Source: Pseudofrankia saprophytica
Lineage (GTDB): Bacteria > Actinomycetota > Actinomycetes > Frankiales > Frankiaceae
Direction: 5' to 3'
DNA length: 64,000 nt
NCBI RefSeq assembly: GCF_000235425.2
Contig: NZ_KI912266.1
Coordinates: 7,246,720 to 7,310,719, forward strand
The translations under genes and the position numbers were made by a program. Numbering within the stretch: the first letter of the stretch is position 1; each line of letters starts with the position of its first letter. Of the stretch, positions 10,905-22,228 are shown in pieces. The notes beneath the pieces were generated by a model. The model had not been told where the DNA came from, ran no database searches, and saw only the letters and a program-made list of their open reading frames with translations.

Positions 10905-11125
10905 GTCTGAACGCCTCCATCCGCCCCGGGGCACCGACCACCGGCCACAGCGGCAGCCAAGCCATATTCGCGGCAGCAGCATGTCACCGATACGAGGGCC
11001 GAGGCAACCGCGGTGGACACCTCCGCCGCGCACCGAGCCATCGCCCACGGCCGCCCACGGCCGCTTCCGGTTGCGGGCGCGCAGGCGAAGGGCAGGTCGC
11101 CTGTTGCGCGCATGCGTACCGGCCG

Positions 11126-11141
11126 ATGAGTATCTACTCAT
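11126..11141. promoter_or_regulatory. Perfect inverted repeat ATGAGTA-TC-TACTCAT
   Basis: A 16-bp dyad with seven perfectly paired bases each side of a TC spacer, in the only AT-rich stretch (11126-11152) of the 294-bp gap between the divergent P450 and double CoA-transferase genes. It lies 58 bp before the CoA-transferase start. The size and symmetry fit a dimeric repressor site. It differs from the TTGTACCG operator found elsewhere. Confidence 0.55.
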
Positions 11142-11198
11142 TAATGATAAATCCGCGGCCTGCCCGGTGCCGGCCGCCGCGAGGCGGAAGGAACGCGG

Positions 11199-13685
11199 AT
11201 GACCACCGAGACGACGGGGCAGGGCCCGCTTGCCGGCATACGGGTTGTCGAGGTCGCCTTCGGTACCAGCGTGGTCGGGGCCGGCCTGGCCGGCAGCCTG
11301 CCGGGTGCGATGCTGCGCGATTTCGGTGCCCAGGTGACCCGGGTCCGCTCGGCCCGCCGGCCGGCGCTCGACACCGGGGTGGAGTTCGCCCGCGTCTGGG
11401 ACCGCGGAAAGGAGATCGTCGAGGTCGACGACGACGCGGACCCCGCGGGCGCGGCGGCGACGGCCGCGGCTCTCGCCAGGTCCGCCGACGTCCTGTTCCT
11501 CACCGGCGCGGAGGAGGCGATCGAGCGCCGCGGGCTGGGCTATCCGGACCTCGCGCGCGCCAACCCGGCCCTGGTGGTGGTCCGCACCCGCCCCAGCTAC
11601 TCCGCACGCGGCGCGCTCGCCGACCTGGAGCTGCTGCTCGCCGCCCGCACCGGGCTGCTCACCCAGATCCGGTGCCACCAGCCGGGCCGCCCCGCCTTCG
11701 CGGACCTCGCGATCGCGAGCGCGGGCGCGGGGCTCACGGCGACGGTCGGGGCGCTCGCCGGGCTCTACGAGCGGGCCGCGACCGGGCGCGGCGGCTGGGC
11801 GGAGACCTCGCTCGCCGACGGCCTGCGCGCCCTGCTCCCCATGATCATCGGCCGGGTCGAGCATCCCTCCCCCACGACGACGCTGCTCTGGAAGGACCAG
11901 GGCCCCAAGGAGAGTCTCGCCTACCGGTGCGCCGACGGCGAGTACATCCAGCTCTGGTTCGGCGCCAAGGGCGCGTACGAGGAGTTCCTCGCGTACCTCG
12001 GCGAGCCCCCAAGCGAACGCGGCTACAACGCCGACCTGATGAGCGGCGCGATGGTCGAGCGCGGCGCCCGCTGGGCCGCGGCGTTCGCCACCCGTCCCCG
12101 CGCCGCCTGGCTCGCCGACCTCGCCGGCCACAACTTCCGCTGCGAGCCGGTGCTGCGCCCCGGTGAGGCGCTCCTGGACGACCACGTGCGCAGCACCGGG
12201 CTGGCCGTCGGCCACGACGACCCCGACCGCGGCCGGATCACCGTCCTCGGCCCGATCGCGCGCGTCATCCCAACGGGCCAAGCCGGCCCGCCCAGCACAG
12301 CCGGCCCGGCCGGCCCGGCCCGGGCCGCTGGCGCGCCCGCGCCCGGCGGCGCTGGCGAGGCGGGTGCCGGGCGGCTGCTGTCCGGTGTGCGGGTGCTCGA
12401 CCTGTCCGCCTACCTCGCCGGGCCGGTCGCGACGGCGGTGCTGGCGGAGCTCGGCGCGGACGTCGTCAAGGTCGAGCCGGTGACCGGTGACATTCACCGG
12501 AACATGGAGCCCATGTTCGCCGCCGGCCAGCGCGGCAAGCGGGCCGTCGCGCTCGACCTGAAGGCGCCCGGCGCGGCGGGCGTCCTCGCGGCGCTCTTCC
12601 GCGACAGCGACGTCGTCCACCACAACGCGCGGGTGGGGCTCGCCGAGCGGCTCGGCTACGACGAGGCCACCGTGCGAGCGGCGAACCCCGACGTCGTCTA
12701 CTGCCACGCGAGCGGCTTCGGCGCGACCGGCCCGCGCGCGAAGCTGCCGGCCAACGACCACCTCATGCAGGCGCTCTCGGGTGTCGAGGGCTCCCAGGGG
12801 GGCGCCGGCCAGCCGCCGACGTTCCTCGTCTGGGGCGCGATCGACTCGGCGAGCGGCTGGGTCGCGGCCTGCGGACTGCTCGCGGGCCTCTACGCGCGCC
12901 GCCGTGACGGCGGCGGGCAGTCCGTCAGCACGTCGCTGCTCGGGGCCGGCCTGATGCTGAAGTCCGGCGCGTTCGTCGTCGGCGCCGGCGACCCGGCCGA
13001 CCCCGGCGCGGGCGGCACAGCCGCCACGGACAGCACAGCCGCCACGGACGGCACAGGCGCCACGGTGATCGCCGGGCCGGCGCTCGACGCCGGCCAGACC
13101 GGCTACGGCGCGGCCTACCGGATCTACCAGGCCGGCGACGGCGGCTGGTTCGCCCTCGCGGTCCCGGACGCGAAGACATGGGGACGCCTGCGCGACGCGG
13201 TCGCGGCCGGCCTGCCCGCGGGGCGGGGGTCGCTGCTCGCGAACCTGCCCGCGACGCCGCCGCCGCTGCGAGCCTGGCCCGGCGAGCGCCAGCCCGCCGA
13301 GGAGATCCTCGAAGCCGCTTTCCATGAGGGCGGCGCGGCGGGCTGGGCGGCCCGGCTGCGCGCCGCCGGCGTGCCGGCCGAGCTGGTCGCCGGGGTGGAC
13401 CGTTCGGGTTTCGTCGCGAACATCGTCGACGACCCCGTGGACCGCGAGCTGGGCCGCACGGTCGCCTTCGACTGGGGAGCGCGCGGCCTGACCGAGCAGC
13501 CCGGGTTCGCCCTGCGCCTGGGGCCCGAGCCCCGCCCCGCCGTCCGGGTCGCGATCCCCGGCCTCGGCGAGCACACCGCCGAGGTCCTCGAGGCCGCCGG
13601 CTTCGACGCGGCCGCCCGCGCCACCCTCGCCGCCGCCGGCGCGATCCCCGTCGAGGCGCCGAGCCCCGTCGGCACGTCCGGCTGA
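11199..13685 (+). CDS. Fused tandem type III CoA-transferase (two CaiB/BaiF domains)
   Basis: This 828-residue protein carries two complete family III CoA-transferase domains, at about residues 10-365 and 393-815. They are joined by an Ala/Gly/Pro-rich linker near residues 362-392. Each half starts with the typical GIRVVEVAFG or GVRVLDLSAYLAGP strand and retains an aspartate where the catalytic residue is expected: FADLAIASAG in the first half and GAIDSASGW in the second. The second half also contains a Thr/Ala-rich insertion near residue 605-625 encoded by an 18-bp tandem repeat. ATG 11199 has GGAAGGAA seven bases upstream. Family members act as intertwined dimers, so this fusion could be a covalent pseudo-dimer; whether both sites work is unknown. 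Confidence 0.88.
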   Translation: MTTETTGQGPLAGIRVVEVAFGTSVVGAGLAGSLPGAMLRDFGAQVTRVRSARRPALDTGVEFARVWDRGKEIVEVDDDADPAGAAATAAALARSADVLFLTGAEEAIERRGLGYPDLARANPALVVVRTRPSYSARGALADLELLLAARTGLLTQIRCHQPGRPAFADLAIASAGAGLTATVGALAGLYERAATGRGGWAETSLADGLRALLPMIIGRVEHPSPTTTLLWKDQGPKESLAYRCADGEYIQLWFGAKGAYEEFLAYLGEPPSERGYNADLMSGAMVERGARWAAAFATRPRAAWLADLAGHNFRCEPVLRPGEALLDDHVRSTGLAVGHDDPDRGRITVLGPIARVIPTGQAGPPSTAGPAGPARAAGAPAPGGAGEAGAGRLLSGVRVLDLSAYLAGPVATAVLAELGADVVKVEPVTGDIHRNMEPMFAAGQRGKRAVALDLKAPGAAGVLAALFRDSDVVHHNARVGLAERLGYDEATVRAANPDVVYCHASGFGATGPRAKLPANDHLMQALSGVEGSQGGAGQPPTFLVWGAIDSASGWVAACGLLAGLYARRRDGGGQSVSTSLLGAGLMLKSGAFVVGAGDPADPGAGGTAATDSTAATDGTGATVIAGPALDAGQTGYGAAYRIYQAGDGGWFALAVPDAKTWGRLRDAVAAGLPAGRGSLLANLPATPPPLRAWPGERQPAEEILEAAFHEGGAAGWAARLRAAGVPAELVAGVDRSGFVANIVDDPVDRELGRTVAFDWGARGLTEQPGFALRLGPEPRPAVRVAIPGLGEHTAEVLEAAGFDAAARATLAAAGAIPVEAPSPVGTSG

Positions 13686-13710: not shown

Positions 13711-13880
13711 TCGTGGCCGATGGTCGACTTCGGGGACGCCACCATCGCCCACGCTCCAGATTCGCCGGACGAATCGTGGCCGACCATGGTGTCCCTGAAC
13801 ACCACCGTCGACCACGCTCCAGATCTGCCACCTGGGTCGGCGGCGGTCATCGACCATGATCCAGACTTCGGCGTGCTCTG
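13711..13880. repeat. Degenerate 63-bp tandem repeats in the intergenic gap
   Basis: Two units begin TCGTGGCCGA at 13711 and at 13774 and share ACGCTCCAGA 42 bases in. A third, shorter and weaker copy of the latter part follows (ATCGACCATGATCCAGAC at about 13848). They fill the gap between the CoA-transferase and the TetR gene. No function is evident. Confidence 0.45.
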
Positions 13881-13947
13881 GGTGACCAGTACGGTCCGTG
13901 CGTTCCGCGGTCCGTGCGTTCGCTCGGTTTGAGATACTGACAGGATC

Positions 13948-15333
13948 ATGACGAGCGATCCGACCCGCTCGGTGGGCTGGCCAGCGGAGCGGCCAGCGGA
14001 GCGGGCGCCCACGGTCGGTGCGGACGTGCCCGCGCCGGAGTCGATCGCCCGGCGCGTCCCGTTCGCCAGCAATCCCGCCGTCGGTCAGCGTGGACGGCTC
14101 ACCCAGCAGCGCATCGTGGCGGCGGCGCTGCAGGTGTTCGGTGAGGGCGGCTACCACACCGCCAGCGTCGCCGACCTCGCCAAGCGCGCCGGCTGCTCGC
14201 GGGTGGCGTTCTACCAGTACTTCTCCAGCAAGGAGGACGTGCTTCGCCAGCTGGCCGGGCAGGTCGCCCGCCAGGTCGGCGCCTCCGTCGAGGCGATGGG
14301 GCCACTGACCCCCGACGCGGCGGGCTGGACGACGATCCGCGAGTGGGTGGAACGGTACGCGGACATCTACGAGCACTTCGGCGCGGTGTTCCAGGTCTTC
14401 GAGAGCGCGGCGAGGGAGACGTTGAGCCTCAAGGCGCTCAACGTCCACGCGGCGGCGGCGAACATCGCGCTGATCCGGTCCAGGCTCGTCTCGACCACGC
14501 TGGCCCCGCACGACGCCGACGCGGTGATCGGACTGCTCCTGGGCGCCACGGCCCGCACCTTCTACTCGGCCGAGATCCTGCGCAATGCCGCCCCGCTGGC
14601 GTACCCGCGCACACGGGTCGACGACGCGCTCGCCGACGTCATCCACCGCGCTCTCTTCGGGCTGATTCCCGGCGTGAACGCGCACGGCCGCGGCGCCGAC
14701 GAGGCGCCGTTCATCGACTTCGACCGCCGGGCGGGCGCGGCGCCGACCCGGCGCTCCGCCCTCACCGACACCGCGCGGGCCACCTACGACGCACTGCTCT
14801 CGGCCGGGTACGAGGTCTTCGTCAAGCGCGGGTACCACGGCACCCGCGTCGACGACGTGGCCGCGGCCGCCGGCCTGTCGCACGGCATCTTCTACCGCTA
14901 CTTCGCCAACAAGGCCGACCTCGCGCGCACGCTCGTGCTGGCCGCGATGACGCCGCTGTCCAGCACGCTCGCCGCGATTCCCACGCCACCCGTGCCCGGG
15001 TCGGGAGAGGCCTGGTCGACGGCGGCGCTGCGGGCCTGGCTGCGCACGTACAACGAGACGCAGGTCTCCGAGGCCGGGATCATCAGGATCTGGGTCGACG
15101 CGACGCTGCACGAGGCGGCGCTCGGTACCGACGCGGCCGCGGCCCTCGACTGGGGCCGGCGCCAGCTCGCCCACTTCCTGGCGCCGCGCGGCTTCGGCGA
15201 CGTCGACGCCGAGGCGATCGTGGCGATGGCCCTGCTGGACGTGTTCGGCGGTGGCCACCGCTCGGCGGAGACGCTGGAGGCCGCCGTCCACGTGATCGAG
15301 GGCGGCCTGCTCGGCCAGCAGCGCACGTCCTGA
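13948..15333 (+). CDS. Double TetR-family regulator (two DNA-binding domains in one chain)
   Basis: A 461-residue protein with two TetR N-terminal helix-turn-helix units. The first is at about residues 50-100 (TASVADLAKRAGCSRVAFYQYF) and the second at about 274-325 (TRVDDVAAAAGLSHGIFYRYF), each followed by its own helical ligand domain. Ordinary TetR proteins are about 200 residues and dimerise, so this is a natural tandem. The ATG at 13948 follows a short TGAGATACTGACAGG leader and the first 45 residues are low-complexity. It lies 262 bp downstream of the fused CoA-transferase. Its operator is not identified; the dyad at 11126 is one candidate. Confidence 0.88.
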   Translation: MTSDPTRSVGWPAERPAERAPTVGADVPAPESIARRVPFASNPAVGQRGRLTQQRIVAAALQVFGEGGYHTASVADLAKRAGCSRVAFYQYFSSKEDVLRQLAGQVARQVGASVEAMGPLTPDAAGWTTIREWVERYADIYEHFGAVFQVFESAARETLSLKALNVHAAAANIALIRSRLVSTTLAPHDADAVIGLLLGATARTFYSAEILRNAAPLAYPRTRVDDALADVIHRALFGLIPGVNAHGRGADEAPFIDFDRRAGAAPTRRSALTDTARATYDALLSAGYEVFVKRGYHGTRVDDVAAAAGLSHGIFYRYFANKADLARTLVLAAMTPLSSTLAAIPTPPVPGSGEAWSTAALRAWLRTYNETQVSEAGIIRIWVDATLHEAALGTDAAAALDWGRRQLAHFLAPRGFGDVDAEAIVAMALLDVFGGGHRSAETLEAAVHVIEGGLLGQQRTS

Positions 15334-15579: not shown

Positions 15580-16788
15580 TCAGACGCCGGCGGGGCTTTC
15601 GAGCCTGGCCGGGTAGCCCAGGAGCTTGGCCATGTTGCCGCCCATGAACTTGGCGACCCGCTCCTCGTCGGGGATGTAGGCCAGCAGGTCCTCGGCGTAC
15701 TTGGCCGGCTCGGCCAGGCCCTCCGGGTGCGGGTAGTCGGACCCGAACAGGACATGCTCCTCGCCGAGCAGCTCGGCGAGCTCGGCGTAGTTCTCCTCCC
15801 AGAAGGGGGAGATGTAGATGCAGCGGCGGATGGCCTCGATCGGGTTCTCCGGGAAGTCCTGCGGCATCTTCTTGTAGAGGTCCTTCATGGCCTTCAGCAA
15901 CGGCGCCACCCAGGCCGCGCCGTTCTCGATGACCGCGACCTTCAGGTCCGGGAACCGGGTAAGCGCGCCGTGGCAGGCAAGGGCCGCCACGGAGTCCTCG
16001 ATCGGGCGCCACGCGGACAGCATGCGGAACGCCTGCGGCTGGAACGGCAGGAACTCGCTGTTGTTGCCGTACCAGTCGTTGGTGTACCGCTCATAGCCCG
16101 AGTCGGACGAGTGCATGCCGACGACCAGGTTGTTGTCGACGATCTTCTGCCACACCGGGTCGAACTCGGGGAAGCCGAAGGACCGCGAGCCGCGGAAGCC
16201 CGGCACGGGCGCGGGCCGGATCAGCACGACCTTGGCGCCGCGCTCGATCACCCAGTCCAGCTCCTCGAGGGCCTTGTCCACGATCGGCAGGGTGATGACC
16301 GGCGTGGTGAAGATGCGGTCCTCGTAGTTGAACTGCCACGTCTCGTAGATCCACTCGTTGAGCGAGTGGATCACGGCGTGAATCAGATCCGGGTCGTCGC
16401 GCATGCGCTCCTCGACCAGGCTGGCGAGGGTCGGGAACAGCAGCGTGCGGTTGACGCCCTGCTCGTTCATGAGCTCCAGGCGCGCGGCCGGGTCACGGAA
16501 GGCGGGAAGTGCCCTGATCGGCGCGCCGAAGATCTCCCGGCGGCTCTTACCGTCCGGATTTCCCTTGCGGTAGTACTCCTCCTGGGCACCGGGGCGCGCG
16601 ACCACATCGAACGTCGGGTTCGGAATGTAGTTCGAGATCTGCCCCCGCACGACGATCTTCGTGCGGCCGTTCACGTCGACGTAGTCGATGGCGCCCTTGT
16701 ACCTGTCGGGCAGGTACTTGGTGAGTGCATCGCGCGTCTCGTACAGGTGGTTGTCCGCGTCGAACACAGGGAACCTGGCACTGGTCAT
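15580..16788 (-). CDS. Amidohydrolase-2 family metal-dependent hydrolase/decarboxylase
   Basis: A 402-residue TIM-barrel protein of the amidohydrolase-2 group (PF04909), which includes ACMS and gamma-resorcylate decarboxylases. Metal-site landmarks are FDADNHLYE at the N-terminus, VGMHSSDSGYERY near residue 220, and the C-terminal FGSDYPHPEG with the catalytic-type Asp. Many actinobacterial members of this subfamily occur in aromatic or steroid degradation clusters without an assigned reaction. ATG 16788 has a GGTCGGAAC stretch before it, a weak ribosome site. It resembles in plan the amidohydrolase at 43253-44503 and could act on a ring-cleavage or carboxylated intermediate. Confidence 0.88.
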   Translation of the reverse strand: MTSARFPVFDADNHLYETRDALTKYLPDRYKGAIDYVDVNGRTKIVVRGQISNYIPNPTFDVVARPGAQEEYYRKGNPDGKSRREIFGAPIRALPAFRDPAARLELMNEQGVNRTLLFPTLASLVEERMRDDPDLIHAVIHSLNEWIYETWQFNYEDRIFTTPVITLPIVDKALEELDWVIERGAKVVLIRPAPVPGFRGSRSFGFPEFDPVWQKIVDNNLVVGMHSSDSGYERYTNDWYGNNSEFLPFQPQAFRMLSAWRPIEDSVAALACHGALTRFPDLKVAVIENGAAWVAPLLKAMKDLYKKMPQDFPENPIEAIRRCIYISPFWEENYAELAELLGEEHVLFGSDYPHPEGLAEPAKYAEDLLAYIPDEERVAKFMGGNMAKLLGYPARLESPAGV

Positions 16789-16956
16789 GTTCCGACCATA
16801 GGCCGTTTCTAACACTCGCGTCAACAGGCCGCTGGCAGCACGGCCGGCGCGGGAATCACGACGCGGTCGGCCGAGCCATGGGCGCGGGCATACCCCTTCG
16901 GCGGCAGCCAACACCGCCCGCGCCGGAGCCTCCGACGCGCTCGAACGGGGCTCGGC

Positions 16957-19723: not shown

Positions 19724-19788
19724 CAGGGTGGCACCCTTCCTCTCCACGGCGGGCGCCCGCACCAGGGCGGACGCGACGCTAGGCTTCC

Positions 19789-19805
19789 TTGTACCGATCG
19801 GTCAA
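19789..19805. promoter_or_regulatory. TTGTACCG-type operator, site 1
   Basis: TTGTACCGATCGGTCAA lies between the divergent SDR (start 19723) and NTF2-like (start 19825) genes, 20 bp before the latter. It matches the consensus TTGTACCGNNCGGTCMA fully. Confidence 0.72.
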
Positions 19806-19824
19806 CTTACTCCGGAGGAGCCGC

Positions 19825-21983: not shown

Positions 21984-22127
21984 GAGATTCATGAAGCTAT
22001 CCCGACGCCCTCTGGAGCGTCAAGGCGACGAAGTTCCCGGCCGAACGGGCCAGGTGGGCCCCGCCTGGCCCGGGACACCGCGGGCACCCGTTGAACCGGC
22101 CGGGAGATCCGGCTACCGTCACGCTGT

Positions 22128-22144
22128 TTGTACCGGCCGGTCCA
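22128..22144. promoter_or_regulatory. TTGTACCG-type operator, site 3
   Basis: TTGTACCGGCCGGTCCA, differing from site 2 by one spacer base. It is 85 bp upstream of the acyl-CoA synthetase start. Confidence 0.72.
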
Positions 22145-22228
22145 GAGGCCAGAGGACGCGCGAAAATGATCTACTTCCGCGTACCCGGAGGCCGCTGTCC
22201 CCGAGATCGCTAGGTGGAGGCAGGCTCG

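Follow-up and report, generated by a model that had tools for sequence, protein, structure and literature searches.

Could two TetR repressors fused into one natural chain work as a single asymmetric repressor? The question is raised by a gene in the window, the 64,000-nt stretch of Pseudofrankia saprophytica DNA that we analyzed (NZ_KI912266.1, 7,246,720 to 7,310,719, forward strand). A first-pass annotation had proposed that this gene encodes two full TetR units in one frame and that the product could be an obligate pseudo-heterodimer reading an asymmetric operator or sensing two ligands.

Proteins of this kind, called double TFRs, form a subfamily that is termed infrequent in PMC11667970, with 204 putative members cited in Actinomycetes. 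The parts of that paper dealing with Mce3R (Rv1963c; PDB 9b7y), the double TFR of Mycobacterium tuberculosis, describe how the two units of a single chain together make up an asymmetric TetR, which has one ligand cavity and binds a non-palindromic 25-bp site (cryo-EM and EMSA). The isolated first half assembles into homodimers or homotetramers without operator binding (PMC11667970). Mce3R motifs are also described as not classically palindromic in part of PMC4482099, and the excerpted text of PMC3511530 brings up Mce3R solely for its distance to a neighbor. The idea of the first-pass annotation has, therefore, already been demonstrated for another double TFR. Because Mce3R is the sole double TFR with both a structure and an operator in the literature searched, general principles of DNA recognition by these proteins are lacking. 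With a further example whose short operator can be predicted across a genome, one could ask which half of the protein reads which half-site; it would also bear on the ligand sensed by the shared cavity and on the reason for retaining the fusion. What is new here is such a candidate operator, TGACR-N4-YGTTAG; the double TFR class itself is already known.

Two Conserved TetR Units in One Chain

The gene is a single frame of 461 codons with zero internal stops (Table 1). Pfam TetR_N (PF00440) is found twice in its product (104.1 bits vs. a cut-off of 24), and the local alignment of unit 1 with unit 2, which spans both the helix-turn-helix and the ligand domain, scores 151, compared with a mean of 34.3 (s.d. 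5.6, maximum 58) for 300 shuffles. The nearest named relatives are proteins of Pseudofrankia sp. BMG5.36 (91% identical) and P. asymbiotica (86%), followed by those of Frankia nepalensis (82%) and Frankia sp. AgB1.9 (78%). We aligned eight members (alignment A1; 38–91% identity to the window protein), among them a 72% identical paralogue from the same genome and a protein from an Acidimicrobiales metagenome-assembled genome (MAG). Both TetR units are present in all eight, and so, without variation, are the helix-turn-helix cores AGCSRxxFYQYFSSK (unit 1) and AGxSHGxFYRYFxNK (unit 2).

These results bear out the first-pass view of two full TetR units in one frame, and the homologues that it had called for show the same architecture. 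The two objections that it had raised, a helix-turn-helix degenerate in homologues and a missed stop between the halves, find no support in this alignment, since every member keeps both units and both cores are invariant. The protein is thus a double TFR, with two complete units in one frame and both helix-turn-helices intact and conserved. Two shortened copies in relatives speak against both halves being needed in every case: one of 204 aa consists of the second unit alone (L025), and in the other, residues 27–127 are matched and a stop follows (L074).

Table 1. Positions in the window of the double-TFR gene, its parts, the proposed target gene and the candidate operator.
Feature	Position	Strand	Basis
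Double-TFR gene, 461 aa	13948..15333	+	Open frame; two TetR_N matches; open in 8 aligned members
TetR unit 1, residues 43-237	14074..14658	+	Model helices; EthR-like, VIA Z up to 14.1
Helix-turn-helix 1, residues 74-91	14167..14220	+	Model helices 74-81 and 85-91; invariant core
Linker, residues 238-273	14659..14766	+	Mostly low-confidence prediction; pLDDT <50 at 248-270
TetR unit 2, residues 274-455	14767..15312	+	Model helices; DesT, aq_1058 and others, VIA Z ~11.5-12
Helix-turn-helix 2, residues 301-318	14848..14901	+	Model helices 301-307 and 312-318; invariant core
Amidohydrolase gene (Amidohydro_2), proposed target	15580..16788	-	Pfam; PtmU3-/DitZ-like; start codon checked
Candidate operator TGACGCGAGTGTTAG in amidohydrolase promoter	16809..16823	-	Sole window copy at <=1 mismatch; block conserved 5/5

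Predicted Structure and Comparison with Mce3R

A monomer structure prediction, as suggested in the first pass, gave two helical units at residues ~43–237 and ~274–455 (AlphaFold2 with an input of six sequences; pLDDT 77.3, pTM 0.75). The top Foldseek match to this model was Mce3R (E 2e-7, 425 columns, TM-score 0.48/0.55, rmsd 9.4). With VIA-align, the model and Mce3R were superposed over 354 residues (Z 22.0, rmsd 6.3), and among the 50 matches listed, Mce3R was the sole whole-chain one, the others aligning over fewer than 200 residues. A model of the Acidimicrobiales homologue, which is 38% identical to the window protein, behaved similarly (pLDDT 76.3; Z 19.7, rmsd 6.7 and 353 residues against Mce3R) and is not independent because it was built from the same six sequences. 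For neither model did the VIA-align matches listed include a double TFR other than Mce3R. Both models are of medium quality (pLDDT 77 and 76), and their superpositions on Mce3R do not come below an rmsd of 6.

The window protein resembles Mce3R in having two unlike TetR units per chain, in having an asymmetric candidate operator where that of Mce3R is non-palindromic, and in its lipid/steroid-like catabolic setting. On the other hand, the two are only 14% identical in the structural alignment, and their sequence similarity is mainly helix-turn-helix-sized. The Mce3R sites are 25 bp long, whereas the candidate motif here has 14–15 bp; Mce3R regulates the mce3 operon, whereas the genes proposed here encode an amidohydrolase and monooxygenases, and no mce genes are found among the neighbors that were annotated. 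EthR, FadR, DesT and FasR, which have the fold of each unit of the window protein, are single-unit chains that work as homodimers. Engineered single-chain Tet repressors (PMC1797012) likewise join two TetR domains in one chain; these are artificial and derived from Tn10 TetR, whereas the window protein is natural and its units have diverged.

Double TFRs in This Genome and Beyond

How common are such fusions? Among the 150 of 391 TetR_N candidates scored in the 9.98-Mb genome, at least three open frames with two TetR_N units were seen by eye, namely the window gene, the paralogue at 7797883-7799253 and another double at ~745566-746360. The third double (L080:7138-8388, 416 aa) lies beside a P450 gene; its matches include KstR2-type chains as well as Mce3R, the KstR2-type ones being better. 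At E <= 1e-30, the family profile is positive in 3 of 396 genomes sampled across the phylum; within the order of G468, 13 of 248 genomes are positive at E <= 1e-60.

We built a tree of 53 units. Eighteen double proteins contribute a cluster of first units (support 93/72) and a separate cluster of second units (95/84), the latter also taking in two single-unit proteins, and the third double of the genome falls apart from these 18. The tree carries long-branch warnings; L027 and duplicate orthologue entries were left out of it, and Mce3R is absent from it. We read this grouping of first and second units as the trace of a single ancient fusion, with the third double representing a different lineage. 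A second class of Actinomycetota likewise has members of the lineage of the window protein.

Neighboring Genes and the Amidohydrolase

The genes around the double TFR encode a P450, a DUF1330 protein, LLM oxidoreductases, a CoA-transferase and an Amidohydro_2 protein, together with an SDR, a SnoaL protein, a flavin monooxygenase and an acyl-CoA ligase. The amidohydrolase gene adjoins the double TFR at four orthologous loci (L021, L022, L023 and L073) and is also adjacent at the paralogue locus, where its product is 54% identical. L089 retains the order CoA-transferase, double TFR, P450, and an amidohydrolase gene lies a few kb off. The double TFRs of L026 and L090 are each divergent from an Amidohydro_2 gene of distant similarity (23–25%).

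Chains resembling the amidohydrolase (searched with 15583-16749, which is short of the first 13 codons) include the TIM-barrel hydrolase 4dzi, PtmU3 and DitZ. The last two names belong to diterpenoid metabolism, whence our guess that the substrate is terpenoid-like. The CoA-transferase family III gene at 11199-13685 is itself a two-unit fusion (two PF02515 stretches), and the double TFR of L089 likewise has a long CoA-transferase-containing frame ahead of it.

A Candidate Operator in the Amidohydrolase Promoter

When the syntenic gaps were aligned, a block in the amidohydrolase promoter was found to be kept in 5/5 cases and to recur before the amidohydrolase gene of the paralogue. A first version of the motif, RTGTTAGRAACGRYC, was superseded once L089, L090 and L026 had been read, and the resulting reduced candidate motif, TGACR-N4-YGTTAG, is TetR-sized, nearly palindromic (TGACR vs. 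TAACA) and asymmetric in the same way each time. Its exact form, TGACRNNRSTGTTAG, has two copies in the whole genome, compared with 0 for the reversed control, and each lies in the promoter of an amidohydrolase gene that neighbors one of the two paralogous double TFRs.

The first-pass annotation had directed attention to the gap at 10905-11198 and to the upstream region of the regulator gene as targets. Neither choice gains support: at <=1 mismatch, the sole copy of the motif in the window is the one at 16809-16823. The gap contains instead a perfect palindrome, ATGAGTA-TC-TACTCAT (11126-11141), between the P450 and CoA-transferase genes, whose arms are conserved in 3/3 relatives and which is probably the operator of another, symmetric regulator. 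As an operator of the double TFR, it was set aside because it is symmetric and its gap lacks the candidate motif.

We then counted TGACRNNRSTGTTAG in 22 chosen genomes, a set in which seven of the eight full-length carriers had supplied the pattern. All eight genomes with a full-length member have it (23 sites, reversed control 2), with 13 of these 23 sites upstream of an Amidohydro_2 gene. The genome with a shortened copy has two sites (G002; control 1), with a site at L104 beside an apparent transposase gene, and two genomes with distant doubles (G012 and G029) have one each; the remaining 11, including G008 with a distant double, have 0 (control 11). Across the phylum sample, at least one exact copy occurs in 37 of 393 other genomes, with a maximum of two each, and the three carriers have 2, 3 and 7 sites.

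The site is also present in the gap between regulator and amidohydrolase in L026 and L090. Its orientation was read from 16 amidohydrolase upstream regions, which were mostly fetched by the motif, so that the 15/16 with a site are a biased count used for orientation only: the site is sense in seven and antisense in eight, with one of these having both. The two orientations relative to the amidohydrolase genes argue that it is not a mere promoter box. In the L125 amidohydrolase region, a symmetric TGAC form takes the place of the asymmetric one.

The Motif Tracks the Regulator in New Genomes

For an out-of-sample comparison, new loci were drawn by the protein profile alone, which yielded 15 loci in 11 new genomes (the match contains a stop in L128 and starts at profile position 70 in L126). 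The exact motif is present in 10 of the 11 new carriers (24 sites, reversed control 2) and in 1 of the 20 non-carriers among those listed (one site, reversed control 5), a contrast with a Fisher p of 2.6e-6. Without five previously searched non-carriers, which had no sites, p is 2.1e-5; by genus, it is 1.8e-5, and with both changes, it is 1.0e-4. One carrier genome, G664, lacks the exact motif throughout. The 24 new sites include 11 near the start of an Amidohydro_2 homologue (three of them distant, ~23%), three near that of a flavin monooxygenase gene, two near that of a P450 gene and one near that of an SDR gene, and seven stand before no gene similar to those of the window. Across genomes, the motif tracks the regulator and often lies before pathway genes.

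Within 1.5 kb on each side of the 15 new regulators, the exact form occurs at three loci and a loose asymmetric form at eight, seven of these eight sites being directly upstream of the regulator. A symmetric TGAC form occurs at two of the 15 loci, a symmetric TAAC form at none and the reversed control at none; at 7 of the 15, the asymmetric site is not found within this distance. In the other class of Actinomycetota, this position directly before the regulator implies autoregulation.

Could TGACR-N4-YGTTAG instead be owned by another regulator of the same pathway, with the double TFR reading elsewhere, for example, in its own promoter region? Because regulator and pathway co-occur, a different regulator could be the one that uses the site. 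Moreover, in Pseudofrankia and Frankia, the upstream region of the regulator lacks the site and has a short conserved block before the start codon instead, and in this strain, three unique direct repeats are found upstream of the regulator. Ownership by another regulator is nonetheless unlikely in our judgment, in view of the seven loci at which the site directly precedes the double TFR, its presence between regulator and amidohydrolase in L026 and L090, and the position of the sole two copies of this genome beside its two double TFRs.

A Probable Pseudo-Heterodimer on an Asymmetric Candidate Site

We consider it likely that the protein is a double-TFR repressor that works as an intrachain pseudo-heterodimer, with TGACR-N4-YGTTAG as its candidate operator in two amidohydrolase promoters. 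The Mce3R precedent, the whole-chain model match and the conserved asymmetric candidate operator all support this reading. We infer that the two unlike TetR units of one chain would pair with each other, as in Mce3R, and that their two different recognition helices would read one asymmetric near-palindrome, in this genome at the promoters of the two amidohydrolase genes beside the paralogous double TFRs. Occupancy of the -35/spacer region would shut off transcription until the repressor is released by a pathway intermediate bound in the shared cavity; this ligand is plausibly an acid of the terpenoid type or its CoA ester. Of the first-pass proposal, then, the obligate pseudo-heterodimer on an asymmetric operator gains support, and the sensing of two ligands does not, as Mce3R shows one shared cavity and nothing tested here favors two.

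The half-sites may be divided such that unit 2 (SHG type) reads TGAC and unit 1 (CSR type) reads CTAAC, perhaps; the clue from single-unit SHG-type TFRs amounts to just two palindromic sites among 30 TetR-like frames. No homodimer can fit an asymmetric site at both of its halves, which bears on the retention of the fusion. The proposal also provides a regulon for an uncharacterized amidohydrolase/monooxygenase/P450 pathway. Does the protein then stand for a lineage separate from that of Mce3R, with a fixed pair of unlike helix-turn-helices, a fixed asymmetric TGACR-N4-YGTTAG, one half-site per unit and a terpenoid-like catabolic regulon across two classes of Actinomycetota? We rate the chances of this as even.

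Two chains might, alternatively, pair in parallel to give two symmetric heads, two palindromic operators and possibly two ligands. The low-confidence linker of ~36 residues would allow this, and the isolated first half of Mce3R does self-associate, as described in part of PMC11667970; those assemblies, however, bound no operator, the model is predicted to pair like the single chain of Mce3R, and the symmetric form CTAACANNNNTGTTAG is missing from 7/8 carrier genomes, which together make parallel pairing decidedly improbable. That one unit is a passenger and a single helix-turn-helix does the work, as the shortened copies L025 and L074 might suggest, is hardly credible when 8/8 members of A1 keep both units with invariant cores and the two-unit profile found 15 further loci.

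Other Sequence Elements

Upstream of the double-TFR gene, the direct repeat TCGMCCAYGMTCCAGA occurs at 13745, 13808 and 13850, and these are its only three copies in the whole genome (control 0). In the upstream regions of orthologues, it has no match at <=4 mismatches; a single match with four mismatches lies upstream of the paralogue, and L021 and L022 have in common, by eye, just the shorter ACACGCTCCAG. These repeats are not conserved in relatives, and we do not favor them as an operator.

A near-palindrome, TTGTACCGRYCGGTC, is common to the SDR/SnoaL gap (19763-19824) and the flavin monooxygenase/acyl-CoA ligase gap (21993-22213). The motif GTACCGRYCGGTC drawn from these two gaps was set aside as weak, with 15 copies in the genome compared with 8 for the reversed control.

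Finally, -10-like boxes are seen near 13930-13950 for the double TFR and 16780-16800 for the amidohydrolase, so near the start codons that both transcripts may be leaderless.
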